A stretch of 20,915 nucleotides of DNA from positions 1-20,915 of IMG/VR virus record IMGVR_UViG_3300031673_006764; one strand, 5' to 3'. This document shows positions 1-16,265 of the stretch, one piece after another. The notes beneath the pieces were generated by a model. The model searched no databases and was not told the origin of the DNA. It saw only the letters and a list, made by a program, of their open reading frames with translations. The stretch's first letter is position 1. The number at the start of each line of letters is the position of its first letter. The stretch comes from a virus. The translations under genes and the position numbers were made by a program.

Positions 1-610
1 CGTTGTTTGTACTCTCGAGGATGCACTCATAGGCCACACCGTCCAGCGTGCACACTTCCCCAACCTCAAACGTCGTCGTCGCGTTCCAGATGCCCGACAG
101 GTAGCAGTCTGTGTAGACACGCCCCTGGTCGATCTTGTCGATGTAGTGCGCGAAGTACTTCTGCATCACCCCGACGACACGCACCACGACATAGTCGTTG
201 TTCTCAATCCCTTCCTCTGGTTCGACGGAGTCAGGACCGACACGACCGCTGAAGACCATCGCATTCGCTCCGGCTACTCCATCTCCGTCGTACTTCCCGA
301 TCCAGATCTGCAGCTTATGATAGCAGCCGATCAGTGGGACTCCTGCCGGATTGAAGATCGATGTATCCTCGGGATCCAAGCTCTCGCTTGCAGATCGGTA
401 CTCCTGCGTGTTGAGCAACGTGATCGTCGCAGTCCACCGACCTGTCGAACGATCTCCGTTCCACTGCAACGACTTCACGCGGGACTTGCCTGGGAAGGCC
501 GACCCTGCTGGATTGATCAAATCGATCCAGTCCGATCCGTCGTAGACCCTGACTACTTCTCCCGACACATGCGAGAGGATGTGCGCGTTTTCGATTTCCG
601 CTCTAGCCAT
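1..610 (-). CDS. Tail-tip / baseplate protein, partial (3' end outside window)
   Basis: The frame is open from ATG at 610 to the window edge, about 203 codons, so the C-terminus is missing. The start follows the tape measure stop by one base, and GAGG lies seven bases upstream of the ATG. The N-terminal 150 residues are rich in beta-strand-like sequence (for example LQIWIGKYDGDG and VFSGRVGPDSV), as in tail hub or distal tail proteins. The last visible 30 residues (IWNATTTFEVGEVCTLDG, then YECILEST) resemble a chitin-binding CBM5/12 module and closely match part of the protein at 6028-7113. In siphophages the gene after the tape measure normally encodes a distal tail or tail-tip protein that contacts the host. 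Position and composition support that role here, but I recognise no specific family. Confidence 0.75.
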   Translation of the reverse strand, partial: MARAEIENAHILSHVSGEVVRVYDGSDWIDLINPAGSAFPGKSRVKSLQWNGDRSTGRWTATITLLNTQEYRSASESLDPEDTSIFNPAGVPLIGCYHKLQIWIGKYDGDGVAGANAMVFSGRVGPDSVEPEEGIENNDYVVVRVVGVMQKYFAHYIDKIDQGRVYTDCYLSGIWNATTTFEVGEVCTLDGVAYECILESTNN

Positions 611-611
611 A

Positions 612-3600
612 TCAGAACCTCATCGGCGCGTAGCCTACGCCGGCATCGTTGACGTTCTTGCTTGTCAGGTCCTTCATCATGAGAGTCACTAGCCGCTGCT
701 GGGCGAGGTTGATGTTGATTGTCGCACCGCCGCCCATTCCCCCAAGTTGGGACAGTGGAACTACTGCCTCTGGCCCCTTCTCTCCAATGATCGCTGGTGT
801 CGGCTTGAATGCGATTCCACCTTCGCCCATATGCGGCAGTTGTGGCTCGATCCATTCGAACGTCGGAATCAGCGGGATGTTCACGCCCGGGAGGAGGTTG
901 ATGAACTTGATCAGCGCATTGAACGGCCAGATGATCCCGTTCATCACCTGGCCAAGCAGATTCCCGAAGAACACAAAAGCAGCTGCCGCACCCTCGGTCA
1001 CACGCCGAAGCAGATTCAGCGCTTCGCCGATGATGTCAATCATCCATTCCCAGTCTGACATTTTATCCGTCAGGCCGTCCGTGCCGGATAGCCACCCTTC
1101 CGTATCAGTGAGGAAGAGCTGGATGTTGTCGATGATCCCACCGAGATAGGTTTCGAGCATGTCCAACAGATTGACCTTGATGTCGTCCCAGTGCTCCCCT
1201 ACCCAATTTCCGAAATCCTCGAACATGCCCAGCACAGTATCCACGAATGGCTTGATGGCACCCCAGACGTCAGTCGTCAGGAACGACCATCCCTCGTCTG
1301 AGAAGAACAAGATGATGGCATCCAGCCAACCGTAGATCCGATCAAGCCAGTCTGTAATCTGCGGGAACAAGTCCTCTTTCCAGAATGGATCGACCTTCTC
1401 CGTCCAGAACGTACCGAATCCCTCCGCGAAGGTGCTCAAGTCGTCCACGAACACATCCGTGATCCAACCAGAGATCTGATCCAACGTCCAGCCGAACGTT
1501 TCGAGAGCAGGCAAGATTCCCTCGATGATCGACGGGAAGATCGCCTCGTACGCCGCCCTGACGGTATCTCTGAAGTCCGCGATCGGTTGGATCGCTCCAA
1601 GAATCTCGTTTCGGAAGGGCTCCATTGCCTCTTGCCACCACAACAGCACTTCCGAGGGATCTTCCTTTTCCTCGGCGCCCATGGTTTCCCAATCGAAGTT
1701 CGTCGGCTCCCCGGGCGTGCCAGCAGCAAACCGGATCCGGTTGATCGGCCAACCAATCGGAACGTTCAGGTTCGACAAGAGTTTCTGTCTCGCCTCGACT
1801 TCCTTCTTGATCGTCTCCTCTTGCAGGATGAACAGTCCGGTGATCGACGTAAGAATGTCAGCAAGCGGCCACAGGAATCCGAAGAGCGCTGACAGCAAGT
1901 CAACCTGGATCTGCGCAGCGGCTTCCTGGATCGCAGCCACAGACTCCGCCGACTCCACAAGGCCCCAGAAGGACTCAGCGAGTGCCAGCGATGCGTCGAT
2001 TACCTTGTCAATCGCAGCGGCTTCCTCCACCGCCTTCTCGGCAGCTGGCTTCACAACCAACTCATTCCACGCCGTGAACAGCGTGTCCACGATCGCCAAC
2101 ATGGCCGCGACACCGGCAATCGGACCAGCACCGATTGCCGTTGCTGCAGATATGGCACTGATTGCACCGCCGCCCGATGTGACGACACTACCCAGCCCTT
2201 GCATCCCCTCGCCACCATACTTGGTCAGCAGGCCGCCAATGCCTGTGATCAGTGTGGCAGCTACATCGATGAGTCGATCTTTTGCCTTTTCCGCTGAGAG
2301 TCCAAGTGCTTCCAATGCGGTGATCAGGGAGAGGATCTCTTGGCCTGCCTCGCTCTCCACGTCGATGTATTGCTCCACCCATCCAGTGAGCGTCTTGTAC
2401 CGTCCCGCCAGATCATCGAGGATCTCCGCCTGAGCGATCGATCCGTCTTCGGCCAATTTGAATGCCGCGATGAGCGCGGATGTTTCCTCTGCGAAGGTCG
2501 AGGCTTCCCCGACGAGAGCGCGGATCCTGTCGCGAAGATCTTCCAGCATCTCTACCCCGGACCATCCCTCCTTGGTGTAGAGCGCGAGAGCAGACTCCGC
2601 CTCTTCGAGATAATCCCTCAGTTCGCCGTACCCCTCGAGCGTTCCTTCTACATCCGCTGGGTCCATCTTGGCTACGGAGTCGGCTACCTTTTGAATCATC
2701 CCAGAGAACCAATCCCACGGACCAGCAATCGTAAGTGGCACCGCCTCTTCTAATGCAGCTTCTACGTCTGCACCGTAGACCCTGATTTGCTCCAGCGTGT
2801 AGCCGAATCCCTCCGCGATCGTCTTTGCCACCATGTCCGTTTCATTCGCCAATGCTTGCTGGAGCACCCTGAGTTCTGCTGCCGATTGTGCGAACGTGAA
2901 GAGACTTCCCTCTAGTTCGCTGACCGGGCGACCTAGCATATCGCCAGTCGCTTTGAACTCCTCGCTCACTCTGACTTTCGCAACTTCTTCCTCAACAGCT
3001 GTGAGCATCGCGCCTGTAATCCCTTCGATGATCTCGGCGACACGTGCCCGAGTGAAGACGTCTTGGAAGTCTTCAAATGCGCGTTCCGCATCCCACATGG
3101 TCTGACTCTCAAAAGGCACCGAGGACGGGAAGATGCCGGGCAGTGGCAGTGGCATATCTACAATTTCCGCCGGCAGCATTTCCTTCCGTAGTTCACCTAT
3201 CCGTCTCAGATAGATTTCCACCTCATCTACATTGTTTCGCGTGGCATCACGCATGTCGTCCAGTTTGGAAATCACGAAGCCAAATGCTGTCGCCAAACCC
3301 ATTATCCCCGCCACGATTGGATGTGATGCAAGAACGTTGAGTGCGGCATAGGCCAACCACACGCCGGCGGCCAAAGCTCCCGCTGCCGCAGCTCCGCCCG
3401 CCATGTATCCCGCCATGGCGGCAAGGCTCTCAATGACTGGTCCGAGGATCTCTGCAACTGCTCCGAACCCGTCCGCCAGTGCAGTCCACGCTTCGAGAAA
3501 TGCCAAGCTCGCCGGAAGGAGCTTTTCTCCAACCGCGATACCTACGTCATTGAGTTGCGACTTCAGGACCGTGATTTGGTACTCCCACGATTGCGAGACC

Positions 3601-4856
3601 TTCTCGAAGGCGATACCCATCGTGCCAGCTGCATACTCCGTCCTCTCCATGTCAAGCGCGAAGCCCGCAGCAGCAGTAGTAACCAGCGGCAGGACAGCGG
3701 TGATCGCACGAACATTCGTGAACAGATTCTCCAATGGGGTGCCGGTCTTCTCCGCTTGTTCCGCGATCATCTTCAACGCGCCCGCAAACCCATTGGTCTG
3801 AATCAGCGATCTGCCAGATTCATATCCAAGATCTGTGATTGCTTCAGCCAATGCTCCAGTAGGTCTGAACATGGACATGATCGTTTGACGAAGCGAGGTG
3901 ACTGCCCAATCCGTCATGATTCCCTGTCTTGTCAAGGTGGCAATCGCGGCGGTCATCTCTTCAAGACGTGCACCTGCAGGAGCCGCAACGCCGGCCAATC
4001 TACCGAATTGGCCTGCCAGTTCCTCGTATGTTGTCTTGCCATATCTCACAGCAGTGAACAACAAATCATTGACTCTAGTGGCTTCTGATGCAGCCATGCC
4101 GTAGGCATTCAGGACTGTGGTAACCATATCGACGGCTGTCAGCACGTCCGTCACGCCAGCCGCTGCCGCCTTCATCCCGGATTCGAAGATCTCCGTCGCC
4201 TGGGAGCCAAAAAACGTCGCGCTGTAAATCTGATACATGGCCTTGGTGCCATGAGCGGCCATGACATCATAGTCGTACGCGAGATCGCGGACCTCCTCGC
4301 CAAGAGCCGCAATTCCTTGTTGGTCGAGATCGGTCAGCGTCCACAGCTGGTAGAGTTCCTTGTTGAACTCCCGCTGAGACTCCGTGGCCCCGCTTGCCAT
4401 GCTGAGGGTTTTTGTGATACCTGCGAATGCGGCCATGTACGGCAGTACGGCCTTCGCCATCACCATCAAGGATCCGATGGATAGCGTCGCCCTTTTTGCC
4501 GCTCCGCCAACCGCAGTGAGTCCGACCGATAGGTCAACCGCGCCAGCCGCGGCGAGCTTGGCTGCCAGTTGCCCTTGGTGTAGAGCAAGTGCAAGCTGGT
4601 TTGCAGAGAGGGTAGCCATTTGCTGCGCGGAGAGCAGGCCCATGACCGATACCGTGACCATGTTGTAGCTGTTGATCAGCCCCATGTTCGCCGCGGCAAT
4701 GGCGGCGGAGGCAGCCTGCCCCTCGCTGATCATCCGCGACGTGTGCGACGCGAACGAGGTGCCTACCCCCGCCATCTGGGACTCAAACTGAGCCCGCGGC
4801 ACCATGATCTCTACAAATGCTCTGCCTAGCCCTTCGGCCGCACTCTCGCCCGCCAT
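612..4856 (-). CDS. Tail tape measure protein
   Basis: At 1414 residues this is the largest gene. It starts at ATG 4856 after GGGAGGG. The tape measure protein fills the tail tube lumen, sets tail length and is ejected with the DNA. Residues about 160-430 look like the TP901-type core (PhageMin_Tail), with long Ala-rich helices and the pattern ATRVNDLLFTAVRYGKTTYEEL. Hydrophobic stretches occur near residues 483-530, 890-930, 990-1013 and 1290-1328, consistent with membrane insertion during DNA entry. The region of about 1343-1385 holds the typical C-terminal motif PTPAIIGEKGPEAVVPL. At the usual 0.15 nm per residue, the length predicts a tail near 210 nm. It follows the chaperone gene and precedes a tail-tip gene, the standard siphovirus order. 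No lysozyme or peptidase domain is evident. Confidence 0.97.
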   Translation of the reverse strand: MAGESAAEGLGRAFVEIMVPRAQFESQMAGVGTSFASHTSRMISEGQAASAAIAAANMGLINSYNMVTVSVMGLLSAQQMATLSANQLALALHQGQLAAKLAAAGAVDLSVGLTAVGGAAKRATLSIGSLMVMAKAVLPYMAAFAGITKTLSMASGATESQREFNKELYQLWTLTDLDQQGIAALGEEVRDLAYDYDVMAAHGTKAMYQIYSATFFGSQATEIFESGMKAAAAGVTDVLTAVDMVTTVLNAYGMAASEATRVNDLLFTAVRYGKTTYEELAGQFGRLAGVAAPAGARLEEMTAAIATLTRQGIMTDWAVTSLRQTIMSMFRPTGALAEAITDLGYESGRSLIQTNGFAGALKMIAEQAEKTGTPLENLFTNVRAITAVLPLVTTAAAGFALDMERTEYAAGTMGIAFEKVSQSWEYQITVLKSQLNDVGIAVGEKLLPASLAFLEAWTALADGFGAVAEILGPVIESLAAMAGYMAGGAAAAGALAAGVWLAYAALNVLASHPIVAGIMGLATAFGFVISKLDDMRDATRNNVDEVEIYLRRIGELRKEMLPAEIVDMPLPLPGIFPSSVPFESQTMWDAERAFEDFQDVFTRARVAEIIEGITGAMLTAVEEEVAKVRVSEEFKATGDMLGRPVSELEGSLFTFAQSAAELRVLQQALANETDMVAKTIAEGFGYTLEQIRVYGADVEAALEEAVPLTIAGPWDWFSGMIQKVADSVAKMDPADVEGTLEGYGELRDYLEEAESALALYTKEGWSGVEMLEDLRDRIRALVGEASTFAEETSALIAAFKLAEDGSIAQAEILDDLAGRYKTLTGWVEQYIDVESEAGQEILSLITALEALGLSAEKAKDRLIDVAATLITGIGGLLTKYGGEGMQGLGSVVTSGGGAISAISAATAIGAGPIAGVAAMLAIVDTLFTAWNELVVKPAAEKAVEEAAAIDKVIDASLALAESFWGLVESAESVAAIQEAAAQIQVDLLSALFGFLWPLADILTSITGLFILQEETIKKEVEARQKLLSNLNVPIGWPINRIRFAAGTPGEPTNFDWETMGAEEKEDPSEVLLWWQEAMEPFRNEILGAIQPIADFRDTVRAAYEAIFPSIIEGILPALETFGWTLDQISGWITDVFVDDLSTFAEGFGTFWTEKVDPFWKEDLFPQITDWLDRIYGWLDAIILFFSDEGWSFLTTDVWGAIKPFVDTVLGMFEDFGNWVGEHWDDIKVNLLDMLETYLGGIIDNIQLFLTDTEGWLSGTDGLTDKMSDWEWMIDIIGEALNLLRRVTEGAAAAFVFFGNLLGQVMNGIIWPFNALIKFINLLPGVNIPLIPTFEWIEPQLPHMGEGGIAFKPTPAIIGEKGPEAVVPLSQLGGMGGGATININLAQQRLVTLMMKDLTSKNVNDAGVGYAPMRF

Positions 4857-4868
4857 GTACCCTCCCTG

Positions 4869-5132
4869 CTATTGAGGGCCTACCAATCCATGAAACTCAC
4901 TTGCTTCACGTATGTCATCGAACTTCTCTTCACTAGGGAACAGGAGATCCGGTGTAGCTGCTGCCAAGTCCATTGCGTTCTTCCTCTGCTCGGCCTCATT
5001 CTTTCCACCAGTCTCCGGCGGGAAGAAGTTCCACAGCCATCTGCCGAATAGTGTTGCGTGGCGCACAAAGTATCTGAACTGGATGTCATCCCAGGCCACG
5101 ACATCATCCTCTGTCTTGTTGTAGAGGATCAT
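4869..5132 (-). CDS. Tail assembly chaperone, frameshift extension (GT-like C-terminal part)
   Basis: This frame ends at TAG (4869-4871), 12 bases before the tape measure start. Its first ATG (5132) has no Shine-Dalgarno sequence. The same frame stays open and protein-like upstream of that ATG (YELAIPVL precedes MILYNKTEDD) and overlaps the end of the gene at 5159-5854 in the -1 frame. In lambda and many siphophages the chaperone is made in two forms, a short one (gpG) and a -1 frameshifted fusion (gpGT), and the gene pair lies just before the tape measure. I therefore read this as the C-terminal part of a fusion of about 325 residues. It is acidic and aromatic, with DDIQFRYFVRHATLFGRWLW near its N-terminus. 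Independent translation from 5132 remains possible. Confidence 0.75.
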   Translation of the reverse strand: MILYNKTEDDVVAWDDIQFRYFVRHATLFGRWLWNFFPPETGGKNEAEQRKNAMDLAAATPDLLFPSEEKFDDIREASEFHGLVGPQ

Positions 5133-5158
5133 GAGGACTGGGATCGCCAGTTCATAAT

Positions 5159-5854
5159 CTATGCTATATCCTGCTCCCTTTCTGAGTTTTCCGCATCGCC
5201 CACGCTCTTCTTCACGATGTCGTCGAGTGTCATTCCGGGCTTGAGAGAAGCCTTGGATCCTGGTATCTGTTCGTTCAGCCCGACGACCCAGAGGAAGACG
5301 TCCTCGAGAACTCGTCCTGGCTCACCGCTGAAGAGTTTGTCCACGAATGCAGCGTCAATCGGCATGGTGACAGGTTCAAGTTCCCCTGTCTCGTCGTTCT
5401 TGACGTTGTACGTGACCGTCTTCCCGTTGGCGGCGACCATGGATCGAGCCACTCCGGAGAGCATTTGTCCTCGATTGATTCCCCCGAAGATCCTGTCAAC
5501 GTAGGGCGAGAAACGATTCATCACATCGTCCTGTAGCTTGTCCGCCCACGCCCGGGCCTGCCCCTCGGTCTGCGCCACAAGAGACTCGCCTCGTTTCAGG
5601 ATTTCCTCCTCCAACTGGCGCTTCGCCCGCGTAATCACTGATCCCATAACCATCGATGCCTTGTTGCGTGTCGCCGCCAACGAGAACGGTGTTGCATCCT
5701 TGTCGCTTGTCTCCCGAACGTATGTCTCGAACGCACCCTGATCGCCAATCGAAAGTCGGGGGAACGTAAGTAGCTGTCCCCCGACTTCGAATTCCCGGAC
5801 GTGTGTCTTGCTCGTTGCCTGTTCAATTGCTGCTTGCAGATTGCCCATGCTCAT
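5159..5854 (-). CDS. Tail assembly chaperone (gpG-like)
   Basis: The gene encodes 231 residues and starts at ATG 5854 after AAAGGAG. The sequence is mostly helical and charged, with a beta-like N-terminal part (VREFEVGGQLLTFPRLSIGD), which suits a protein that coats the tape measure during tail assembly and leaves before the virion is complete. The call rests mainly on position (after the tail tube, before the tape measure) and on the overlapping -1 frame downstream, the hallmark of the G/GT arrangement. It is longer than lambda gpG (about 140 residues). The last 15 residues are strongly charged and precede the stop at 5159. I see no motif pointing to another function. Confidence 0.75.
   Translation of the reverse strand: MSMGNLQAAIEQATSKTHVREFEVGGQLLTFPRLSIGDQGAFETYVRETSDKDATPFSLAATRNKASMVMGSVITRAKRQLEEEILKRGESLVAQTEGQARAWADKLQDDVMNRFSPYVDRIFGGINRGQMLSGVARSMVAANGKTVTYNVKNDETGELEPVTMPIDAAFVDKLFSGEPGRVLEDVFLWVVGLNEQIPGSKASLKPGMTLDDIVKKSVGDAENSEREQDIA
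5186..5192 (-). other. Candidate -1 ribosomal frameshift site
   Basis: GGAAAAC is read in the chaperone frame as ..G GAA AAC.., about 27 bases before its stop at 5159. From here the -1 frame is open into the ORF ending at 4869. It is not a canonical X XXY YYZ heptamer, because the first two bases are G rather than three identical bases. Re-pairing in the A site (AAC to AAA) would be good and in the P site (GAA to GGA) imperfect. It is the best slippery tract I can find in the overlap, but the exact site is uncertain. Confidence 0.35.
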
Positions 5855-5880
5855 TTCATTCTCCTTTGTCTCGTTCTCAG

Positions 5881-6015
5881 TTACTTCCCTTTGCTCTTCT
5901 CGTACGCCGCGGCCGATGTCTTGATGACGGAACTCCGCGAATCGTCCATGGACTTCTGGATCTGAGCCCGCGTAGCGTCACCGGTCAATACCTTCGTCGC
6001 TTTCTTCTTGGCCAT
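5881..6015 (-). CDS. Small basic protein, 44 residues
   Basis: ATG at 6015 is preceded by AAAGGAGGAACGCA, one of the best ribosome-binding sites in the window, and the gene ends at TAA 5881. The product begins MAKKKATKVLTGDATRAQIQ and ends YEKSKGK. It is Lys/Ser/Ala-rich with a basic start and end, has no membrane segment and is probably helical. It lies 12 bases after the tail-tube-like gene and 26 bases before the chaperone gene, so it belongs to the same transcript. I do not recognise the family. Its place in the tail cluster suggests a minor tail or assembly factor. The strong ribosome site and neat fit between neighbours make it very likely real despite its size. Confidence 0.8.
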   Translation of the reverse strand: MAKKKATKVLTGDATRAQIQKSMDDSRSSVIKTSAAAYEKSKGK

Positions 6016-6027
6016 TGCGTTCCTCCT

Positions 6028-7113
6028 TTAGGTCGTCTTGGCCCGATCAACGAACCCAACGAGTCCGTCGACCAACAGTGTGAATGGATTCTGAGTCATC
6101 GCCGTCAGTGGCGCGATAATCCCGGCGCCAGGCACTTTCGCCCAGAATTCGAACCGCTCGTCGGCCGACGCTACATCCGTGAAGACAATCACGAACAGCT
6201 TCTCGCCAGAGAACAGTTCCGTGTGATGCGATTCCGAGCCGAGAATCGTCCAGTACGTAGCATTCGGCGGCTCGTTGTCGGTGCTCTCCAGGATGCAGGT
6301 ATAGCTTCGTCCTTCATGCTGAACGATATCTGCACCGTGACTTGTACAACTGCCAGTCGGAGAATACGTCACCGCCGAGTCCCACACCTTCTGGACGCCC
6401 CAGTAGTTCCGGATAGGAAGTTCCCCGGCGTTGATCAGATGCGTTTCGAGCGTCCGGAATCCGTGCTCGTCCTGCAGATTCTTGAACGTACTCACGTCTT
6501 CGCGCTCTCGGTTCATATCGATTGAGAGCGTGTCGTGAGCGCCAATCACCTGCAAGAGGCATGTAACGCGGACGTTGTCGATGTAGAGCGTTTGCGCCCC
6601 CGTAGGATCGATGTCAATGACGATAGACTTCGTCAGCACCGGCGCCGTCAGGAAGAGCGACCAGTATGCCCACTGCGCGTCTCCGTAGAAGACGTTGTTC
6701 GCAGTGATCGTCAAGGTGTTGGCAGTCTGGATAGCTGCACCCGCTGCATTCTTGAACGTCACCGTCAACGTCGCTTCTTTCGTCGTCGCCAGCTTTGCCC
6801 ACAACGAGACAGAGAGTTTCTTCGTCTCGGCGAGGGCAGCAGACAACGTGATCGTCTGCCCCATCGAGGTGTCGTCAGCCGTGTCAATGATCTTGCATCC
6901 ACCTGACAACCCGTTTAGGCCGTAGGTAGCACCCCATGTGATTGTCCCCAAGCCTTCCGTCAGATCCCAACTGTCCAGAGACAGGATGTTGGAGAATTGG
7001 CCGCTGACACCTTCCGTGCCGGCCAACAGATGTACTTCCTCCGCTGACCCGCCATCCAGTAACACCTTCTCAGATTTGAAGAGTCCGGCTAGATACCCTT
7101 GCTTCAGCGCCAT
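6028..7113 (-). CDS. Tail-tube-like protein carrying carbohydrate-binding-like domains
   Basis: The gene encodes 361 residues, starting at ATG 7113 after AGGGTGG. Residues 1-36 and about 188-240, plus 297-361, read like a tail tube core: LSIDMNREREDVSTF, then THLINAGEL, then a C-terminal FTLLVDGLVGFVD. Between them lie two extra modules. Residues about 42-183 resemble a CBM4/9-type beta-sandwich (LSVSLWAKL, AYWSLFLTAP, LYIDNVRV). Residues 244-290 resemble a CBM5/12 chitin-binding module (VWDSAVTYSPTG, HEGRSYTCILEST, ATYWTIL). The gene follows another tail-tube-like gene that shares the start MAL..GY. The protein probably sits on the tail shaft and displays binding domains outward. That domain reading is inferred from sequence pattern alone. 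Confidence 0.7.
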   Translation of the reverse strand: MALKQGYLAGLFKSEKVLLDGGSAEEVHLLAGTEGVSGQFSNILSLDSWDLTEGLGTITWGATYGLNGLSGGCKIIDTADDTSMGQTITLSAALAETKKLSVSLWAKLATTKEATLTVTFKNAAGAAIQTANTLTITANNVFYGDAQWAYWSLFLTAPVLTKSIVIDIDPTGAQTLYIDNVRVTCLLQVIGAHDTLSIDMNREREDVSTFKNLQDEHGFRTLETHLINAGELPIRNYWGVQKVWDSAVTYSPTGSCTSHGADIVQHEGRSYTCILESTDNEPPNATYWTILGSESHHTELFSGEKLFVIVFTDVASADERFEFWAKVPGAGIIAPLTAMTQNPFTLLVDGLVGFVDRAKTT

Positions 7114-7127
7114 TGCGAGTCACCACC

Positions 7128-7556
7128 CTATGCAGTCGGGTCTACGCCGAACAGATAATCCGGTGCGCCAGAGAAGAGGAAGGTCACGGCCATGATCTGC
7201 ATCTCGTTCTCCATTTGCGCGGTCGCGTTGATCCCGACCACCTTCGCGTTCCCCGTGATATGTGGATTGGCGCTGTCTGTCGAGTCTTCGAATTCCAGTT
7301 GCGTGTTCGTCCCACAGAGGTACTTCGCCACAATCTCGCCCATCTCCGCACGTGTGATGTCCCAGAGAATCGGAATCGTGATCTCGATTGGGTCGAACAA
7401 GCCCACCTCATACGTTCGGAACGGTAGGCCAGCATCACCGTGACAAGTCACATCGATCCGTCCTCGGGACGTGTTCAGCGTGATGTCGGCCCGCGTCTGT
7501 AGAACGTGGTCAGTATCCCACGTGAGAATCCCCGTATAGCCATGCGTAAGTGCCAT
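7128..7556 (-). CDS. Major tail (tube) protein
   Basis: The gene encodes 142 residues, starting at ATG 7556 after AAGGAGGG. The sequence alternates beta strands and polar loops typical of tail tube subunits: a strand (ADITLNTSRGRIDVT), a loop with conserved-looking aromatic and Gly residues, a helix (ITRAEMGEIVAKYL) and a C-terminal strand pair ending AVTFLFSGAPDYL. Tube proteins stack as hexameric rings to form the tail shaft through which DNA passes. It lies directly after the tail completion gene and before a second tube-like gene, as expected for the tube position. Which of the two genes supplies the main tube cannot be decided from sequence. This one is compact and of normal size, so I favour it. 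Confidence 0.72.
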   Translation of the reverse strand: MALTHGYTGILTWDTDHVLQTRADITLNTSRGRIDVTCHGDAGLPFRTYEVGLFDPIEITIPILWDITRAEMGEIVAKYLCGTNTQLEFEDSTDSANPHITGNAKVVGINATAQMENEMQIMAVTFLFSGAPDYLFGVDPTA

Positions 7557-7570
7557 TGGTTGTTCCCTCC

Positions 7571-8014
7571 TTAGCTTAGAAGCAAGATCTCATACCGTGC
7601 GCCGGCTCCGTACATCGTGACCTCGGAGACCACTTCCTCCCGTGTCCACGGACTCCCGCGCATGAACAAACGAACGCTTCCCCAGGCTTCAGAGACAACA
7701 ATGTCCCGACCATCAATTGCTTGAATCAGTGCATCTGCTACCAGTAATGAATCTCTCTTGTCCGGGGCCCACGTCGATGCCTGCAATCTCATCCAGTGGG
7801 CAACTGCATCCCCATCCTCTCCGTGCACGTATGCTGGACCTCTCCCCCCGAACGGGTAGTCGATGACTACGAATTTCGCCGTCGGGTCATCCGGTCGGGC
7901 GGGATAGATCGCATTGCCAATCAACGCCAAGAGATTCTCATTCCGCTCTACTTCCTCATCCTGTACAGCGGCCATGAACGCCTCAAGAAACGGGATTATG
8001 AATGGTTCGTTCAT
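7571..8014 (-). CDS. Tail completion / tail terminator-like protein
   Basis: The gene encodes 147 residues. Its ATG at 8014 overlaps the previous stop as ATGA, so translation is probably coupled. The sequence has an N-terminal helix (FIIPFLEAFMAAVQ), a middle part with FVVIDYPFGG and a final strand pattern ARYEILLLS. This fits the small alpha/beta proteins that cap the tail tube and join it to the neck, such as lambda gpU or DUF3168-type proteins. The evidence is gene order (between an HK97 gp10-like protein and the tube) and size. No diagnostic motif is visible. It could also be another neck component. Confidence 0.6.
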   Translation of the reverse strand: MNEPFIIPFLEAFMAAVQDEEVERNENLLALIGNAIYPARPDDPTAKFVVIDYPFGGRGPAYVHGEDGDAVAHWMRLQASTWAPDKRDSLLVADALIQAIDGRDIVVSEAWGSVRLFMRGSPWTREEVVSEVTMYGAGARYEILLLS

Positions 8015-8463
8015 AGCGGTCCCATCCCCGTCAAGATCTTTTGCCAGTCGAACCAGACTTCATCCATCGTGATCGTCATCCAAGGACGAGGTGCCATGAT
8101 CGACGTGCCTGTTTCCAGCATTCCCGGGTAGATGCCCAATCTGCCTGGCAAGTTCTCATCGATGATCCCGGCTTGCATCACAGCGGCACCGCCACGATTG
8201 AACACGGTATGCTTGATGTAATCGCGCATCTCGAATATTTCTCGCGGATCGATGTGCGGGAAGTCCCACGGCATAGAAGGCGGCGGAGCCATGAAGACGA
8301 AGTTGGCGCGGGCTCTCTCGACGAACAACTCGCCGCATTGATCGAGCCGCTCCTCGACGTTCTGCATCACAACATTGATGAACGGCGTCGCGTTGAACTC
8401 GACGACCGATCCACCGTAGTTGTACTTGCTGCCACCGAAGTAACCTTTGCTGGGCAATCCCAT
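8011..8463 (-). CDS. HK97 gp10-like neck / tail component
   Basis: The gene encodes 150 residues. I chose ATG 8463, which overlaps the previous TAA stop (TAATG) and has AAGGTGG seven bases upstream. A longer frame upstream lies inside the preceding gene. The C-terminal half carries the gp10-like pattern: GIYPGMLETGTSIMAPRPWM matches the usual Y..YLE.GT..M.ARPF signature near the C-terminus of this family, and LFVERARANFVFMAP matches the earlier helix and aP motif. These proteins act at the head-tail joint or tail completion. The N-terminus (GLPSKGYFGGSKYNYGGS) is Gly/Tyr-rich and looks disordered. Family membership is a pattern-based inference. Confidence 0.75.
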   Translation of the reverse strand: MGLPSKGYFGGSKYNYGGSVVEFNATPFINVVMQNVEERLDQCGELFVERARANFVFMAPPPSMPWDFPHIDPREIFEMRDYIKHTVFNRGGAAVMQAGIIDENLPGRLGIYPGMLETGTSIMAPRPWMTITMDEVWFDWQKILTGMGPL

Positions 8464-8825
8464 TACGCTACCACCTTCGTCATCCCTTTGATTCTCACGA
8501 TCGGGCATTGAAGCGTTTGCCCCATCCTCGACACGTCCTCCGCCCCGAGAACTAGGTAGTCGTATCCTGTATCGACTTCGCGAGCGATGTCGTCTTCCGC
8601 GATCTCCACTTCGATCGGCACGATCAACAGGAAGTCTTCTACCAGCGGCCTCGACGAATCGTTCGTCTTGACCGACACTCTGTCATTCGGATTCCGGCGC
8701 ACCTTCCTGCACCACTTGTTCTCGTACAGCGGCGACTCCTCCGAGTAGGTCTTCTTCACCGCATTGATGCTGTCCGGGGACTCTGTGGCCCGAAAGAAGG
8801 TGAAGAGCTTGTTCCCACCGATCAT
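8463..8825 (-). CDS. Head-closure / head-tail adaptor protein
   Basis: The gene encodes 120 residues. Its ATG at 8825 overlaps the previous stop (ATGA) and GAGGGTGG lies just upstream. The small, beta-rich sequence (RVSVKTNDSSRP, DFLLIVPIEVEIAEDDI, DYLVLGAEDVSRM, CPIVRIKGM) fits the SPP1 gp16 / head-closure class of ring proteins that plug the portal after packaging. Position between the gp6-like connector and the gp10-like protein supports this. No catalytic motif is present. Confidence in the fold is moderate because these proteins are poorly conserved. Confidence 0.6.
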   Translation of the reverse strand: MIGGNKLFTFFRATESPDSINAVKKTYSEESPLYENKWCRKVRRNPNDRVSVKTNDSSRPLVEDFLLIVPIEVEIAEDDIAREVDTGYDYLVLGAEDVSRMGQTLQCPIVRIKGMTKVVA

Positions 8826-9439
8826 CGGACCACCCTCAGTATCATCCCACTGCTCGCCAGCTTTCTGTACTGATCCTCGAACGCTTTTTCCTTGTCCGGG
8901 AAGACAGATTGAATCTCTCCATCCTGGAACTTCTCAACGTTGTCGTAGACACGGTACTGCTGGTCTACGCGCAAGAGCGTCCGGCTTGCGATTTCAGCGC
9001 AGATGTCCGTGAGCACTGCCGGCAAAGCCGTTCCGGCATCGCTGTACCCGCCAACGTAGACGACGGTGTAACGTTGTGGAGTTCTGTCACGCAGTGCTAC
9101 GCGCGACGTCTGCTCAGGCTTTGGAAGACGGATGTGCTTTGTGTAGACCCAGTACTCATCTTCGTCCGGATCCAGCACTTCCTCTTCGCTGTTGTCCGTT
9201 ACCGAAGTGACGGAGATGATGGGGGGATGATTCACACATAGAATGTGGTTCCCCCCATCAAAGATCTGCGTCACTGTTGCTTCGTCGAATCCAAGAGGTC
9301 TGAGGCATCGTGCGGCCAAATCAGCTACCACGTTCGCAATCATCGCGGTCACGTTGTACGAGTAGTCGGTAAGGCCCGTGTCCTCGTCTACTGTGACTCG
9401 CGTCGCAATCCCTATCTCAGATGCAGTCGGCCAGCCCAT
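8822..9439 (-). CDS. Head-tail connector protein (gp6/gp15-like)
   Basis: The gene encodes 205 residues from ATG 9439, preceded by AGGAGG. The N-terminal part has helices (NVTAMIANVVADLAARCL). A beta region follows (DGGNHILCVNHPPIISVTSV) with the PPI.SVTSV pattern seen in many gp6-like connectors, then VVYVGGYSDAGTALPAVLTD and another helical stretch (ICAEIASRTLLR). The motif Y.GGY....ALP..L...C.EIA is common in this family. Such connectors bind the portal after DNA packaging and form the first ring of the neck. The location directly after capsid and decoration genes is the usual one. Confidence 0.8.
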   Translation of the reverse strand: MGWPTASEIGIATRVTVDEDTGLTDYSYNVTAMIANVVADLAARCLRPLGFDEATVTQIFDGGNHILCVNHPPIISVTSVTDNSEEEVLDPDEDEYWVYTKHIRLPKPEQTSRVALRDRTPQRYTVVYVGGYSDAGTALPAVLTDICAEIASRTLLRVDQQYRVYDNVEKFQDGEIQSVFPDKEKAFEDQYRKLASSGMILRVVR

Positions 9440-9448
9440 GCCGTCCTC

Positions 9449-10060
9449 CTAGACGCCCTTGTAGATCTCCCAGTACGTTGCCGTCGATGCGCCGACTCCA
9501 GGCTCGGATACCGACGTACCAGCCGTCACTTCGGCCTCTGCCAAAGCTCGGCCAAACGCCGCTATGCACTTGAAGTAGAAGCAGTCATTCTGAACGATGT
9601 CGTCGACAGCGTAGACCTCGCCAAGTGCCCACTTCTTGAAGACCGGCCGTTCCATCGCACGGAAGCCGATGAAGTTGACGCCGAAGCAAGTTGTCGTATG
9701 AGTGTTCGTGTTGCGATGCTGAACACGCACATACCCACCCTCGTTCAGTTCGTCACACGAGAAGGCGATGATGTTGTCTTCGCCAAGCCCGGCCGCATCC
9801 GTGATCTCGATGTCTGCCGACGAGTATCCGACCGGCACCAAGTCCGTCCACGAGGAGTTGTCGGGGGACTTCTGGAACGTCAGATAGATCGTACCTGCCG
9901 CTTCGATGGTCCCGATCTCCACGAGGAACGCCCCGCCGCGGCATCCATGCACGAGTTTGGCTGTTCCGTCCGTCTCGGACGCAGATCCATTTCGTGCAGC
10001 CGTCGCCAGCAACGGAGTGATGTAGAACACACTATTGAAATCGCGTGTCATTTCTGCCAT
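9449..10060 (-). CDS. Probable capsid decoration protein with C-terminal CBM5/12-like module
   Basis: The gene encodes 203 residues from ATG 10060, with AAGGAAGG upstream. Residues about 1-135 look like a beta-sandwich: GGAFLVEIGTIEAAGTIYLT, QKSPDNSSWTDL and GGYVRVQHR form a pattern common in small virion decoration proteins made just after the capsid gene. Residues about 142-203 (KKWALGEVYAVDDIVQND, YFKCIAA, ATYWEIYKG) resemble a chitin-binding CBM5/12 module, with the first and last Trp in place. A decoration protein ending in a binding module could tether capsids to polysaccharide. The location after the major capsid gene fits decoration. The binding function is inferred. Confidence 0.65.
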   Translation of the reverse strand: MAEMTRDFNSVFYITPLLATAARNGSASETDGTAKLVHGCRGGAFLVEIGTIEAAGTIYLTFQKSPDNSSWTDLVPVGYSSADIEITDAAGLGEDNIIAFSCDELNEGGYVRVQHRNTNTHTTTCFGVNFIGFRAMERPVFKKWALGEVYAVDDIVQNDCFYFKCIAAFGRALAEAEVTAGTSVSEPGVGASTATYWEIYKGV

Positions 10061-10079: not shown

Positions 10080-11444
10080 TTACGTAAGCGTAAGCCCCGT
10101 GAGGAACTGAATGTCCTCCTCGCGCCGGATACCGAAATCGATCTCCCGCGATGCCAACACGCCAATCCTAAACGTCAGCGCGTACAGTTCCTTCAGGATC
10201 GTGATCTCGGTCTCTCCACCATCCGCAAGCATGATCGCCTTCACGTCGCCAACGAGCATCGCTCGAGACGCGGCACCAGCACCGAGATCGGTGCGAATTT
10301 GCGAGGACGTGTAGACGGGCAGGCCAAGGATGCGGTCCGCCGGCATGTTCGTCAGATCCATGATGTACGAATACTCAGCCGTTCCCGTCTTCGACTTCTG
10401 GAAATGGCTCAGATAGTCCGTGTGCATGACCCACGCACTCTGCGTTGCGGCCACGATGCCGTCGCGCCGTCGGATTGAATTGATCGCGTCCAGCAGGTTG
10501 TCGAAATCTGGCACACCGATCGACCCAGTCGTGTAGGGCGCCATCGATGGGTGATTGAAGAGCCCGAGAGGCTGCTTCGACCCTGTTCCCCTCAGACCGA
10601 CCTTCGTCTGCTCGATCGCCATTGCTGTGACGATCTTTCGACGGACGTCCTCTTCGACATTCCGCCGCGCATGCTTGATCAGGTTGAGGTAGATCGGAAC
10701 AACACACGCCATCGCATGCAGCGTCAGCGTAGCGTTGCCGTAATCGATGTCAGACGTTGAGATGTTGGTCGTGGGTGTATCCCCAGGCCAGTAGATCAGA
10801 GGATCGCGTCCTTCCTTGTCCCATTCCTGGAACTTCGGCGAGTCGGGGAAGTAGTCCACGCCCATGTTCATGAAGATCTCCTGACCGCGGAGCTTCATGA
10901 TCATGTCGGAATGGATCTCTGTCGGGATGAAGAACGAACCGGCAACTTCGGAACTGAGGTTCAGGTCCTTGAGCTGCTGCTGTCGCTCTGCGAGCTGCAA
11001 TGCCTTCTCTTCAGACATCGGTCCACGACCACGCGACTTCTGCGCCTTGAGTTCTTCGAGTTCGAGTCCTGCATCAGCCAAGAACGGATAGTCCCTGCCC
11101 AACGCCAGGATCCCGACCATGTGCGCGAGTGACAGGTCCTTCCTGTCGCGCTTCGTGCTGTCATGGATGATCGCCGGGGCAGTCAGTTTCGCCTGTGGCC
11201 CGACGCCTGTCAGTTCCAGATCCTTCGGATCGAGTGTCGTCAACGTCGGGTCGACCGCGCTCATCACCGCAGGTTTCTTCAACTCCATCGTCATCCCGTT
11301 GTCGTCCAGAAACTTCTGAACGTCTGCGGGGATCTTGGGCTCGTCCTGCCCGCCGCCCTCCTTGGCTTTCGCGAGAAGTTGCTTCGCTCCCGCGATCAGG
11401 AGTTCTCGCTCCGCCGCCTTCATTGTTGCCAGGTCTAGTGCCAT
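10080..11444 (-). CDS. Major capsid protein, HK97 fold
   Basis: The gene encodes 454 residues from ATG 11444. A GTG nine bases upstream is in frame, but AGAGGG is better spaced for the ATG. Residues about 1-165 are charged and helical (MKAAERELLIAGAKQLLAKA, later MSEEKALQLAERQQQLKDL) and look like a delta-type scaffolding and propeptide region removed by the protease. The HK97 shell domain then begins near AGSFFIPTEIHSDM. Family signatures include ISTSDIDYGNATLTLHAMAC, RRKIVTAMAIEQTKVGLRGT, GTGSKQPLGLFN and ADRILGLPVYTSSQI. It forms the icosahedral shell. Its position directly after the protease gene matches HK97 order. Confidence 0.95.
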   Translation of the reverse strand: MALDLATMKAAERELLIAGAKQLLAKAKEGGGQDEPKIPADVQKFLDDNGMTMELKKPAVMSAVDPTLTTLDPKDLELTGVGPQAKLTAPAIIHDSTKRDRKDLSLAHMVGILALGRDYPFLADAGLELEELKAQKSRGRGPMSEEKALQLAERQQQLKDLNLSSEVAGSFFIPTEIHSDMIMKLRGQEIFMNMGVDYFPDSPKFQEWDKEGRDPLIYWPGDTPTTNISTSDIDYGNATLTLHAMACVVPIYLNLIKHARRNVEEDVRRKIVTAMAIEQTKVGLRGTGSKQPLGLFNHPSMAPYTTGSIGVPDFDNLLDAINSIRRRDGIVAATQSAWVMHTDYLSHFQKSKTGTAEYSYIMDLTNMPADRILGLPVYTSSQIRTDLGAGAASRAMLVGDVKAIMLADGGETEITILKELYALTFRIGVLASREIDFGIRREEDIQFLTGLTLT

Positions 11445-11458
11445 CGTTACCACCCTCT

Positions 11459-12562
11459 TTATCCGAGTGCTTCCACGACATCGGCGCCGAGTTCTATGTA
11501 CTCCAGCTCCAGTTCGCGGATTCGTTCCTCTGCCGTCGCCAGAGCGAGTTCCTTCTCGGCCATGGCGCCCTCGTTTTGCTCGATGATCTCTCCAATCAGT
11601 TCAAACGCTTCAGCGACCGGCAGTGCGCCGGCGGCAGCTGCCAACCGGATCTCTGCGAAGGTCTTCTTTTCATCTGCACATTCAGATCCACCCGTAGTGC
11701 CTTCTACCGCCGCCGTACACGTCATTGCTACTTCCGCCCCGCCGCCCTCTGCCAAGGCCGCTTTCACGCCATCTCGCACTGCCTGACGTAGTTCCTTCTC
11801 GCCTTGCAGATGAATGTTGACTGGCACGTGAAGCGGTGCTCCCTTGTGTTCGAACTCCTCAAACCACTTTCGCAGAATCGGAGATGCGCCAGCATAGACC
11901 TGCTCCGCGTAGGCACGGAACATGGCCTTCAAGCCGTCCGTTCGCATTGCCTCGCGATTCGATGGCAAGGACACAGGGCTGTGCTCGAGCAACTCCCACT
12001 CCTTGATGTCCCATCCGCCCCAGAAGTTATCCTTGTCGATCGGCTCCCAGTCTTCGAGCAGGAATCCGACGGAGACGCAGTTCAGGATGTGGCCTTCCCA
12101 CATCTCGTAGTACGCCTTCCCTTCGGTGTATGCGTTCTCCACAGTCCACTGCCACCGCGCCCAACTCATTGCTTTGTACTGCTCGAGCACTTCACTGAAG
12201 CCAACTGGAATCGCGTGCTTGTGCAACGGGAACACCGTCGGATTCTTCTCGTAGTTCTCCGTGATGATCATGCCGTCTTGCCACATGATGTCCCCATCAC
12301 GGTCAGGCATGGACGACGAGATGATGGATTCTGCTTTCGGCCGCCCTTCGAGCAGTACTCCACTCTGTGCGCCTACTTCGAACACCCGCACTGGCTCTCC
12401 GATATCTGCCGGCAGAGAACGCTCGTGCAGGGCGTACTTGTACATTCCCGTGAGGTTCCCTTCCTTCAACAGATCCCGAATCTCGCCTCGATCAAGAACA
12501 ACGTGACCGCCGTCCTCTCCCTTTACCGAAACTTCGGTTGCTGTCAGAGCCTTCCTAGCCAT
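11459..12562 (-). CDS. Prohead protease (HK97 / S78 family) with scaffold-like C-terminus
   Basis: The gene encodes 367 residues from ATG 12562, five bases after GGAGGAG-type sites and overlapping the zinc-ribbon stop by eight bases. The S78 signature is clear: DRDGDIMWQDGMIITENYEK near residues 87-106, LHKHAIPVGFSEVL with the likely catalytic His (114 or 116), CVSVGF with the likely catalytic Ser 164, and LLEHSPVSLPSNREA at about 191-205. The protease matures the prohead by cutting scaffold and capsid propeptides. Typical family members end near 200-230 residues. Here about 140 more residues follow, rich in Ala/Glu with a predicted coiled coil at about 320-360, which suggests a fused scaffolding segment. 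Confidence 0.93.
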   Translation of the reverse strand: MARKALTATEVSVKGEDGGHVVLDRGEIRDLLKEGNLTGMYKYALHERSLPADIGEPVRVFEVGAQSGVLLEGRPKAESIISSSMPDRDGDIMWQDGMIITENYEKNPTVFPLHKHAIPVGFSEVLEQYKAMSWARWQWTVENAYTEGKAYYEMWEGHILNCVSVGFLLEDWEPIDKDNFWGGWDIKEWELLEHSPVSLPSNREAMRTDGLKAMFRAYAEQVYAGASPILRKWFEEFEHKGAPLHVPVNIHLQGEKELRQAVRDGVKAALAEGGGAEVAMTCTAAVEGTTGGSECADEKKTFAEIRLAAAAGALPVAEAFELIGEIIEQNEGAMAEKELALATAEERIRELELEYIELGADVVEALG

Positions 12563-12716
12563 TGCTACGCTCCTCCTTCTGGCATGGCGCCGATCGCGCC
12601 GCCCCTTTCTTAACGATGCCCCGACCCACGGACAGCGTTTGTCTACCGCACCGTGGGCATGTCGTCTGTGAGATGCTGGCACGCACTGCTCCGCAGGTCG
12701 GGCACATTCGTTTCAC
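12555..12716 (-). CDS. Small zinc-ribbon protein, 53 residues
   Basis: The start is GTG 12716, with AAGGAG six to seven bases upstream, directly after the previous stop at 12719. The alternative upstream ATG lies inside that gene. Four cysteines form two CxxC pairs (CPTCG at residues 5-9 and CPRCG at 20-24), a rubredoxin-like zinc knuckle. The C-terminal half is basic (GRGIVKKGAARSA). It overlaps the protease start by eight bases, so translation is coupled. The role is unknown. Small zinc ribbons are often found in phage late operons and may bind nucleic acid or protein. Confidence 0.75.
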   Translation of the reverse strand: MKRMCPTCGAVRASISQTTCPRCGRQTLSVGRGIVKKGAARSAPCQKEERSNG

Positions 12717-13231: not shown

Positions 13232-16200
13232 CTACGTTACCATCTTGGCAGTAATCCTGGCTGCAACACCATCGATGAAGCAATCGATGTAAACGTCAGC
13301 CCCACCGCCATTCGCGCCGCCGGTCACCTGCGAAGTGATATCGCAAAGGCCGTCCCAGTTGCCATTCGCTGGCCTGAGTCGGAATCCGACAGCTTTGCCG
13401 GTGTGCGTTCCGCCCAGCTGGCCGCCAATTGAAAGTCCGCATGCGAAGGTGCTTGCAGCAATCGTAGCGCCAGCAGGAACGTCTACCGAGAAATGATGAG
13501 CCGGGAAGTCGGTAACGCTGCCAGAAGCAGTGATCGTCACCCCGGTCTTGACCAGAATCGAACTCCAGCCACCAGAGAACGTGCCAGAAGTTTCAACATC
13601 CGCCGCAAGATACATGTAATCATGGCTCGTTGAACACGATACAGCAGCATCTGTAACCGCAGTGGATACCAAGAATCCCATGAGGAACGCCTCGGTATAG
13701 CCCGCGGCGAGTTTCACTCCTCCATCGTCGAAGTAGATCTCTGCCCCTGAATGCTGAGTGACACCATCCAGCGGGATACCAGAGCCAGATAGAGCGTATG
13801 ACGCTGTACCGACTTGAATCGCTTCGACACAAGCGGTTGGCTCAACTCGAAGCCCCACGTCCCATTTGCCAGCGCCAGGAACGCGCACTCTGTAACCAGC
13901 AGCATTGCCAGTATGGGTTCCGCCGAGATTCCCGCCGACCGAAACACCGCAGGCCCATGTGCCAGTTCCAATCACGGCGGTAGCAGGAACATCGCATGTG
14001 AAGTGAGCACCACTGAAGTCGCAGACACCACTTGACGTGGTAATCGTAACCCCGGCTTTGACCAACATGCTGCCCCAGGTTGCGCCTACGCCACCAGCCG
14101 TAGTGACATCTTCGGCTAGGTACACATAATCGTGTGCCGTGTAGAGGGACACGTCAGCAACTGTGATCTCGGTCGAGACCAAGAATCCGGCTCGCAATGC
14201 TTCTGTGTAACCAGCCGCGAGCTTCACGCCGCCGTCGTCGAAGTAGAACGAGACGCCTTCATGGGTGGTGACGCCGTTTAGCGGAAGGCCCAAACCGGAT
14301 GCGGCAAAGGACTCTGCTCCGACAGCAATCGCCTTGGTCATGGCCGAAGGCTCCATATTGAGGCCTGTGGTGATCGTACCATCGATATTGATGCCCGTGG
14401 TAGAATCGCCGATCTCAACACCAACCGCTGCGTCCGCGATGTAGAGACCGTAGTCCCAGTCCACGCCGCCATTCTTCAAGCATTCGAACGCGGCCGTTCT
14501 GGCGGTCCCCGTAGTCGAGATCGCCGCGACTTCCAACTGCGCTCGCACACCATTCAACGTGTGTCCGGTGACAAGCGTGAGCGTCGCTCCAGCCTTCACG
14601 TTGAAGTACCCGCCAGCCGTGAAGCATCCCGTGTCGGAGAGGGTCACGCCAGTACCGGCCTCGACCTGCCCCCAAACGGCTGCAGCGTTGTCTGCGCCCG
14701 TCAGATCAACAGAGTTGGACAAGTACAGTTCCGTCCAAGTTCCAAAGAACGAGTTGCTGTTCGCCTGACTCACGGTAACTGTCAACGCATGATACGCCGC
14801 CGCTGCCGCTGTGTTGTTGATGTCAGTGTTGACTCTTCCAACCGTTTGGCTCACCCAATCGTATCCGTCGCCAGTGATCTGAGTGCCAGTCGCTCCGGTA
14901 CCCCAGTCAGTGACTCCACCGAAGACCATCTTGCCTTCGCTGTAGATACCAGTCGTCACATCGGCAAGATAGATACCGTAGTCCCAGTCAACCCCACCGT
15001 TCTTCAGGCATTCGAACGCAGCTGATTTACCAGCATTTGTAATCGCGGCAACTTCAATCTGCGCCCTGACACCGTTCAACGAATGGCCAGCAGCGACCGT
15101 AAGGGTTGCTCCTGCAATGACGTTGGAATAAACACCAGCAGTAAAGCACCCTGTATCTGAGAACGTTACGCCAGTCCCAGCTTCAACTTGGCCCCAAACA
15201 GCAGCAAAGTTGTCGGCCCCCGTTAGGTCAACCGAGTTCGAGATGTAGAGTTCCGTCCATGTACCGAAACAGGAGTTGCTGCCAGTCTGACTCGCACCAA
15301 CTGTCAGCGCGTAGTACGCCGCTGCAGCAGCCGTGTTGTTCAGGTTGGCGTCGATGTGTCCCACTGTCTGCGAGACCCAGTCATACCCTGCTCCGTCGAT
15401 CAGAACACCCGTCGCACCTGTTCCCCAGTCGGTAATACCACCGAACACGAATTTACCCGTGCTCGAGTTGTACCGGAAGTAGTTGTCGGCGGCTTCTCCG
15501 CTGTAGAAGTACACGTCTCCCGCAGCCGTTCCACCAATACCAATCTGCAATGCAGCCGTAGTACAGGTCGCCGAGACAGCAATGCCCGTTACAATCGATC
15601 CAACACCGCTGTCGTCAATCAGGATCCCAGCAGTCATGTTTGGACTCGCGTTCAGGATGTACAGACCGTAGTCGCAGTACGCTCCCGCTGCCGTCACTCC
15701 AAAGACCAACGCCGTGACGCCGTCGTAGTTCACCGTGGAGTTGTACTCAAGGCCCAATCCGTAAACCCGGCCATCGTACGACCCCGAACATCCAGCAGCG
15801 ACGATTCCTTTGAGCGCCGCAATCTCACTTGTCGCAGCCCCAGCCGTGAAGGCGCCAACAAGCAATACGTTCCCGTACACTCCGAAACCGTCGTTCACTG
15901 TGCAGGTCGCGGCAGGATCGATGTACAGATTTCCGAACACCCCGTAGGCGTTCGTAATGACGTAGTCAACATGGACATCGCCTCGAATGCCGATTATCCC
16001 GCCAGCCGTACTCCACGAATCCGTGTAACCTGCCGATTGCTGAAGATCAACATCGATCCCAGTCACGAACACATCGCTCGCCAGTGGAACGTCGATGTCA
16101 ACTACAATCGGTTCCCCCGTCGCGAAGTCAACATCGATGTTCAGCCCACCAAGAGTCTCAAGGACTCCCGCGTCAGTTATGCCTGCGATGCATGTACTGC

Positions 16201-16249
16201 AGTCACTCGCAACCCAATGCACCCTATAGTCGTCTTTGTCTAGTGGCAT
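13232..16249 (-). CDS. Large repeat-containing virion-like protein, 1005 residues
   Basis: The start is ATG 16249, eight bases after AAAGAGG. An in-frame GTG at 16258 is too close to that site. The protein is Gly/Ala/Thr-rich and beta-strand-rich with few charges, like fibre or surface proteins. Residues about 266-439 and 440-613 are one tandem duplication (YDWVSQTVG, WTELYLSNSVDLTGADN, WGQVEAGTGVT, FECLKNGGVDWDYG). Residues about 639-808 and 809-969 are another (YFDDGGVKLAAGYTEA, GFLVST, GGTHTG). Cysteines recur at matching positions (368/542, 414/590, 767/937). There is no signal peptide, catalytic motif or recognised family. It lies between portal and protease, where such a large protein is unusual. 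I infer a head-surface or fibre-like role. Function is unknown. Confidence 0.85.
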   Translation of the reverse strand: MPLDKDDYRVHWVASDCSTCIAGITDAGVLETLGGLNIDVDFATGEPIVVDIDVPLASDVFVTGIDVDLQQSAGYTDSWSTAGGIIGIRGDVHVDYVITNAYGVFGNLYIDPAATCTVNDGFGVYGNVLLVGAFTAGAATSEIAALKGIVAAGCSGSYDGRVYGLGLEYNSTVNYDGVTALVFGVTAAGAYCDYGLYILNASPNMTAGILIDDSGVGSIVTGIAVSATCTTAALQIGIGGTAAGDVYFYSGEAADNYFRYNSSTGKFVFGGITDWGTGATGVLIDGAGYDWVSQTVGHIDANLNNTAAAAAYYALTVGASQTGSNSCFGTWTELYISNSVDLTGADNFAAVWGQVEAGTGVTFSDTGCFTAGVYSNVIAGATLTVAAGHSLNGVRAQIEVAAITNAGKSAAFECLKNGGVDWDYGIYLADVTTGIYSEGKMVFGGVTDWGTGATGTQITGDGYDWVSQTVGRVNTDINNTAAAAAYHALTVTVSQANSNSFFGTWTELYLSNSVDLTGADNAAAVWGQVEAGTGVTLSDTGCFTAGGYFNVKAGATLTLVTGHTLNGVRAQLEVAAISTTGTARTAAFECLKNGGVDWDYGLYIADAAVGVEIGDSTTGINIDGTITTGLNMEPSAMTKAIAVGAESFAASGLGLPLNGVTTHEGVSFYFDDGGVKLAAGYTEALRAGFLVSTEITVADVSLYTAHDYVYLAEDVTTAGGVGATWGSMLVKAGVTITTSSGVCDFSGAHFTCDVPATAVIGTGTWACGVSVGGNLGGTHTGNAAGYRVRVPGAGKWDVGLRVEPTACVEAIQVGTASYALSGSGIPLDGVTQHSGAEIYFDDGGVKLAAGYTEAFLMGFLVSTAVTDAAVSCSTSHDYMYLAADVETSGTFSGGWSSILVKTGVTITASGSVTDFPAHHFSVDVPAGATIAASTFACGLSIGGQLGGTHTGKAVGFRLRPANGNWDGLCDITSQVTGGANGGGADVYIDCFIDGVAARITAKMVT
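13343..13825 (-). repeat. Repeat B, copy 2 (coding)
   Basis: Second B-type copy, starting EAIQVGTASYALSGSGIPLD, offset by 170 residues from copy 1. It ends near NWDGLCDI, after which a short unique C-terminus follows. Confidence 0.85.
13826..14335 (-). repeat. Repeat B, copy 1 (coding, 170 codons)
   Basis: First copy of the B-type duplication, starting at KAIAVGAESFAASGLGLPLN. It shares YFDDGGVKLAAGYTEA, GFLVST, the HDY.YLA motif, a WACGVS-type cysteine and the GGTHTG motif with copy 2. Confidence 0.85.
14411..14932 (-). repeat. Repeat A, copy 2 (coding)
   Basis: Second A-type copy, starting KMVFGGVTDWGTGATG. It is offset by 174 residues from copy 1 and carries a two-residue insertion before FECLKNGG. 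It directly abuts copy 1. Confidence 0.85.
14933..15454 (-). repeat. Repeat A, copy 1 (coding, 174 codons)
   Basis: First copy of the A-type duplication in the 1005-residue protein, from KFVFGGITDWGTGATG to the ADVTTGIYSEG segment. It shares most residues with copy 2, including WGQVEAGTGVT and FECLKNGGVDWDYG, but the DNA differs at many third codon positions. Confidence 0.85.
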
Positions 16250-16265
16250 TTCGTCCACCTCTTTC

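Follow-up and report, generated by a model that had tools for sequence, protein, structure and literature searches.

Small adhesive domains that dress several parts of one phage particle are already known in the form of Ig-like domains. Mycobacteriophage Douge, T4 Hoc, lambda gpV and T5 pb6 share a layout in which a small domain of this type is carried on head, tube or tip proteins of the virion, and weak contact with surface glycans has been demonstrated for Douge and proposed for the others. The Ig-like domains that Douge displays on its head and tube attach to the host surface, and its tip domains are positive on glycan arrays (PMC13033339). Contacts between decoration proteins and carbohydrate have been reviewed (PMC7602432), and the Ig/FN3 domains of tail tubes have been proposed to touch surface carbohydrate (PMC8718954). 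Carbohydrate-binding-type domains are likewise inserted in siphophage tip proteins, namely evolved Dit and Tal and the hub and megatron of phage R4C, but these belong to other CBM families, and these papers describe none in head decoration or tail tube proteins (PMC8540738, PMC10276861).

We describe here an uncultured, siphophage-like phage in which three structural proteins carry one copy each of a CBM5/12-like module. This module has a different fold from the Ig-like domains, and binding is experimental in Douge whereas it is inferred here. By profile, it belongs to the same family as modules of phage and pyocin fibres (phrog_5073, phrog_9851, 9rkv and 25vf), but there the carriers are fibres, whereas here they are the decoration, tail-tube-like and hub proteins of a single phage. 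What is new is thus the CBM5/12-like fold on the head, shaft and tip of one phage, which extends to this fold a known way of dressing the virion with small adhesive domains.

A head-and-tail gene block with three module-bearing proteins

The stretch of DNA analysed (the window), an IMG/VR virus fragment of 20.9 kb, has a tailed-phage head-and-tail block on its minus strand (Table 1), in which the gene order is portal, protease, capsid, 203-aa protein, connectors, 142-aa protein, 361-aa protein, two small open reading frames (ORFs), tape measure and tip. No close isolate was found among 918 phage records, the portal reaching at best 25-28% identity; in the same records the 361-aa protein has a match in one Pelagibacter phage, confined to the module. 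A genome scan likewise matched seven loci essentially at the module region.

Table 1. Features of the window and of its module-bearing proteins
Feature	Position	Strand	Basis or remark
1 Portal	16378-17763	(-)	phrog_12, 2e-62
2 1008-aa protein	13232-16258	(-)	internal repeats
3 Capsid protease region	11459-12682	(-)	
4 Major capsid protein	10080-11453	(-)	phrog_10, E=2.6e-21
5 Probable head decoration (cement) protein, 203 aa	9449..10060	(-)	beta-sandwich N-domain and C-terminal module
6 CBM5/12-like module of decoration protein, residues 142-203	9452..9637	(-)	~17-residue loop insertion
7 Head-tail connectors	8822-9439	(-)	phrog_442, 1.1e-11
8 142-aa tail protein, probable canonical tail tube subunit	7128-7556	(-)	position and conservation in all related contigs
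9 Tail-shaft (tail-tube-like) protein, 361 aa	6028..7113	(-)	two inserted CBM-type domains
10 Jelly-roll CBM4/16-like domain of shaft protein, residues ~36-187	6553..7008	(-)	PF02018 and model
11 CBM5/12-like module of shaft protein, residues 244-291	6241..6384	(-)	8-residue insertion
12 231-aa and 87-aa ORFs	4869-5854	(-)	overlap in -1 relation
13 Tape measure protein, 1414 aa	612-4856	(-)	phrog_991, E=3.3e-42; PF10145, 1.8e-24
14 Tail-tip/hub protein, 203 of 665 aa in window	2..610	(-)	cut by window edge
15 CBM5/12-like module of tip protein, from residue 173	2..94	(-)	cut at residue 203

The 203-aa protein is probably a head decoration protein, as judged from gene position and a predicted fold. 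Its gene directly follows that of the major capsid protein. In the low-confidence AlphaFold model, the N-domain (pLDDT mostly 60-80) is similar to the cement/decoration proteins of the phages BPP-1 (3j4u_H, Z=8.7), Milano (8fwg_l1, Z=8.1) and 7-7-1 (9hz8_0, Z=7.9), with unrelated proteins scoring nearly as high against this weak model as the cement proteins do. The protein also matches phrog_5707, a family of unknown function, at E=2.1e-4.

The 361-aa protein is placed in the tail shaft, as a tail-tube-like protein, by the position of its gene between the 142-aa tail protein and the chaperone and tape measure genes. Comparison by hhalign finds a weak resemblance between its residues 194-240 and residues 22-66 of the 142-aa protein (P=0.0013). 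A whole-protein profile comparison with solved structures gave no tail tube match in the PDB, and AlphaFold left the tube core unmodelled. The best-modelled part of the protein is instead the jelly roll (pLDDT mostly 50-77), in which PF02018 (CBM_4_9) is found in 11 of 13 orthologues at E<0.1 (best 1.9e-4). The jelly-roll model matches CBM16, CBM4 and phage tailspike jelly rolls with Z of 9.4-11.4, including the K2-2 tailspike (8iqe, Z=11.4), CBM16 (2zey, Z=9.6) and CBM4-2 (2y64, Z=9.5). Together with the CBM5/12-like module, this places two CBM-type domains in one protein.

The tip protein is truncated in the window, and its full 665 residues are found on an overlapping contig (L080) and on L027; in L080 the module is complete, to about residue 214 (GIWNATTTFEVGEVCTLDGVAYECILESTNNEPPNATYWTVFSG). 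We infer a tail hub/tip identity from gene order, the gene being the first after the tape measure, and from sub-threshold matches of its orthologues to PF13550 (Phage-tail_3; E=0.0022-0.0042, residues 286-429, in 2 of 4). The C-terminus of the protein is fn3. When whole-protein profiles were run against solved structures, they found no relative among tail tube, decoration or hub proteins.

Several further features of the block are recorded here. The 142-aa protein has no database match in Pfam and PHROG searches. It and the 361-aa protein form a pair of adjacent tail-tube-like proteins (6028-7556, minus strand) in which both CBM-type insertions lie in the second, and the two are perhaps two kinds of tube ring. 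The -1 overlap of the two small ORFs before the tape measure gene is the arrangement of programmed-frameshift tail assembly chaperones, of which lambda gpG/gpGT are an example. The 1008-aa protein encoded between the portal and capsid genes includes a 300-nt repeat (14520-14819 and 15042-15341, 73% identical) and has no convincing family match in profile searches; it is possibly a head-associated fibre.

The three modules belong to one CBM5/12-like family

Starting from the tip module, a module HMM was extended through viral contigs to 406 copies, with the whole decoration family held out. In the window this HMM detects the tube module at 8.9e-14, the truncated tip module at 1.4e-8 and the held-out decoration module at 1.5e-3, and every other window ORF has E of at least 3.4. 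The 22 held-out orthologues of the decoration protein score down to 1e-7, and none of 4,623 shuffled or reversed decoration proteins does better than 0.069. Profile-profile comparison of the module alignment with the decoration family by hhalign gives 94% probability (E=1.2e-7).

The relationship to CBM5/12 is seen with Pfam and with solved structures. The Pfam CBM_5_12 model (PF02839) matches 21 of 22 module sequences at E<=1, the best at 3.3e-9. Relative to its curated cut-off of 26.2 bits, the window copies in the tube protein (15.9 bits) and tip protein (20 bits) are sub-threshold, and orthologues of both rise above it (tube L015, 35.4 bits; tip L003, 27.4, and L004, 29.5). For the decoration protein, Pfam is silent on the window copy, and the model appears in 6 of 10 family members at E<=1 (best 1.8e-3), with the orthologues below the cut-off. 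Among solved structures the module profile matches the CBM of an intradiol dioxygenase (4ILV, 1.1e-8) and the ChiA1 domain (1ED7, 5.9e-8), and also chitin deacetylases, the phage tail fibre 9rkv and the F2-pyocin fibre 25vf. AlphaFold, run on shallow alignments, modelled the tube and decoration modules with pLDDT below 50 throughout, so the models leave the 'ski-boot' fold unconfirmed.

The earlier note had picked out CBM5/12-like segments in three virion proteins and had proposed sensitive profile searches as their test. Those searches find matches, and the segments are correctly delimited: 142-203 in the decoration protein, 244-291 in the shaft protein and from residue 173 in the tip protein. 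Module HMM, hhalign and the Pfam matches of orthologues place all three in one CBM5/12-like family, and by sequence the three window copies are homologous both to one another and to CBM5/12.

The phage modules keep the fold core but lack the chitin site

We aligned 313 distinct phage modules to the chitin-binding domain of Bacillus circulans ChiA1. The core aromatic positions W656, Y662, Y675 and W696 are aromatic in 99, 100, 100 and 96% of the phage modules, respectively, and the two groups share the core W656, Y662, V668, Y675 and W696 together with the YxC strand. In ChiA1, Trp687 and Gln679 serve chitin binding, and CBM5 domains use a Y-W or W-W aromatic pair for this purpose (PMC8449059 and its reference list). 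The Trp687 position is aromatic in 0 of the 313 phage modules and is a gap in 93%, the loop there being about 3 residues shorter than in ChiA1; Gln679 is kept in about 10%, and the CBM5 aromatic-pair positions (678-680) are aromatic in 1-2%. Chitin-enzyme relatives among the HMMER matches listed (1ED7, 4ILV and the deacetylases), by contrast, keep Trp687. The phage modules further differ from CBM5/12 in being carried by virion proteins rather than secreted enzymes.

The conservation of the phage modules is thus mainly that of the core, and no binding site stands out. With the fold core kept and the known chitin site lost, the modules are better described as CBM5/12-like than as chitin-binding CBMs, and the 'chitin-binding-like' label of the earlier note holds for the family but is not supported for the ligand. 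Where this module, common in phages, is annotated as 'chitin-binding', the ligand is probably misnamed. For an abundant family that has kept its fold and lost the chitin site in every sampled copy, the identity of the real ligand is a clear and testable question.

A possible role in glycan contact

By analogy with phage Douge, it is plausible that head, shaft and tip of this phage all bear glycan-binding surfaces. In the reading that we prefer, and hold with about even confidence, the CBM5/12-fold modules would be mobile domains displayed on the virion surface that make low-affinity glycan contacts from head, shaft and tip. One copy lies at the C-terminus of the decoration protein and one inside each of the shaft and tip proteins, and all would face outward. 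Together the modules would provide many weak contacts, most likely with host or environmental glycans and through a site other than the chitin site. On a surface covered with polysaccharide, such contacts would keep hold of the virion or guide it along until the receptor is found by the tip, a step that follows what has been proposed for Ig-like domains on other phages. The second, independent CBM-type domain in the shaft protein, the jelly roll, favours a glycan role. We would suggest only tentatively, as a rather unlikely reading, that the modules make up a virion-wide adhesive coat built from one re-purposed CBM5/12 fold, in which the chitin platform was dropped and a new site for host or environmental polysaccharide arose elsewhere on the module.

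The chief rival to glycan contact is a purely structural role, in which the modules are spacers, cement or stabilizing caps and the fold was recruited for its stability with loss of ligand binding. This is a real possibility, if one short of an even chance. It would account for a core that is about 96-100% kept in modules that lack the ligand aromatics, the arrays of up to 10 tandem copies in fibre-like proteins have the look of building blocks, and the inserted tube domain of phage YSD1 serves ring contacts (PMC8718954). However, a single assembly contact is harder to reconcile with one virion carrying the module at three unrelated places and with a jelly roll as a neighbour. A docking role, with the modules anchoring fibres, accessory proteins or other virion components or attaching to a protein on the host, is improbable. 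Small beta-modules in phage tips do often anchor fibres, but for docking the same partner would have to be present on head, shaft and tip, and the sequence data do not discriminate between types of ligand. True chitin binding, by which the virion would stick to chitin particles or to the biofilm of a chitin-using host, is suggested by the clear homology to the ChiA1 domain and to chitin deacetylase modules; we consider it very unlikely, since every phage module examined lacks Trp687 and the CBM5 aromatic pair. Chance likeness to the short W...Y..G..V..Y.C...YW motif is hardly credible even for the window decoration copy, which alone reaches only E=1.5e-3 with Pfam silent, as its held-out relatives, the profile-profile match and the 4,623 null sequences speak against it, and it is rejected for the far stronger scores of tube and tip.

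Spread and inheritance of the module

The glycan-contact reading concerns a module that is widespread. The 406 copies in viral contigs fall in about 93 ORFs, with up to 10 in tandem, and the carriers are mostly large structural or fibre-like proteins; the matches of the PHROG tail-fibre families phrog_5073 and phrog_9851 lie at the module. Being common in phages and often tandem, the module is not special to the window phage. The contig sample was gathered partly with the peptide EPPNATYW, and that motif is over-represented in it; most of the 313 modules lack the motif themselves and are neighbours within the same proteins. Arrays of 7-10 tandem modules occupy the N-terminal part of proteins encoded at L025:733-2346, L032:8906-12247, L073:9764-11257 and elsewhere.

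Within the three protein families, the module is kept in every orthologue that covers the region (22 decoration, 12-13 tube and 4 tip proteins). Its level of conservation is about equal to that of the remaining protein in each family, and so it is not decaying. The tube module occurs among relatives in two forms, with or without the 8-residue insertion before the D-V strand (SPTGSCTSHGAD versus AVGD).

The earlier note had read the nearly identical YxCILEST[DN]N stretch of the tube and tip modules as a sign of copying within the phage. The stretch is real, with 17 of 27 residues shared in the best stretch of the two window modules, but it is a family consensus: about 25 contigs, many from unrelated phages, have modules with strings of the type YxCILEST[DN]NEPPNATYW, part of which is one of the search peptides. 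In a tree of 79 modules, the 12 tube modules are split off by one supported branch and the 4 tip modules by another (99/99 each versus the other group); the deeper forks are unsettled because of the few columns. At the shared residues, tube and tip use the same codon at 8 of 17 positions, against 7.9 expected from codon usage. Since tube and tip modules form separate clades, each with its own orthologues, and agree in codons at the chance rate, recent copying within the phage is rejected. Any duplication predates the divergence of these relatives, and each copy has been passed down together with the protein that bears it.

A fourth, weaker CBM5/12-like module (E=1.3e-5) is present in a relative (G001), in a 370-aa protein with a lipoprotein-type signal (FSGC) that is encoded outside the virion gene block (L101:6209-7321, minus strand).
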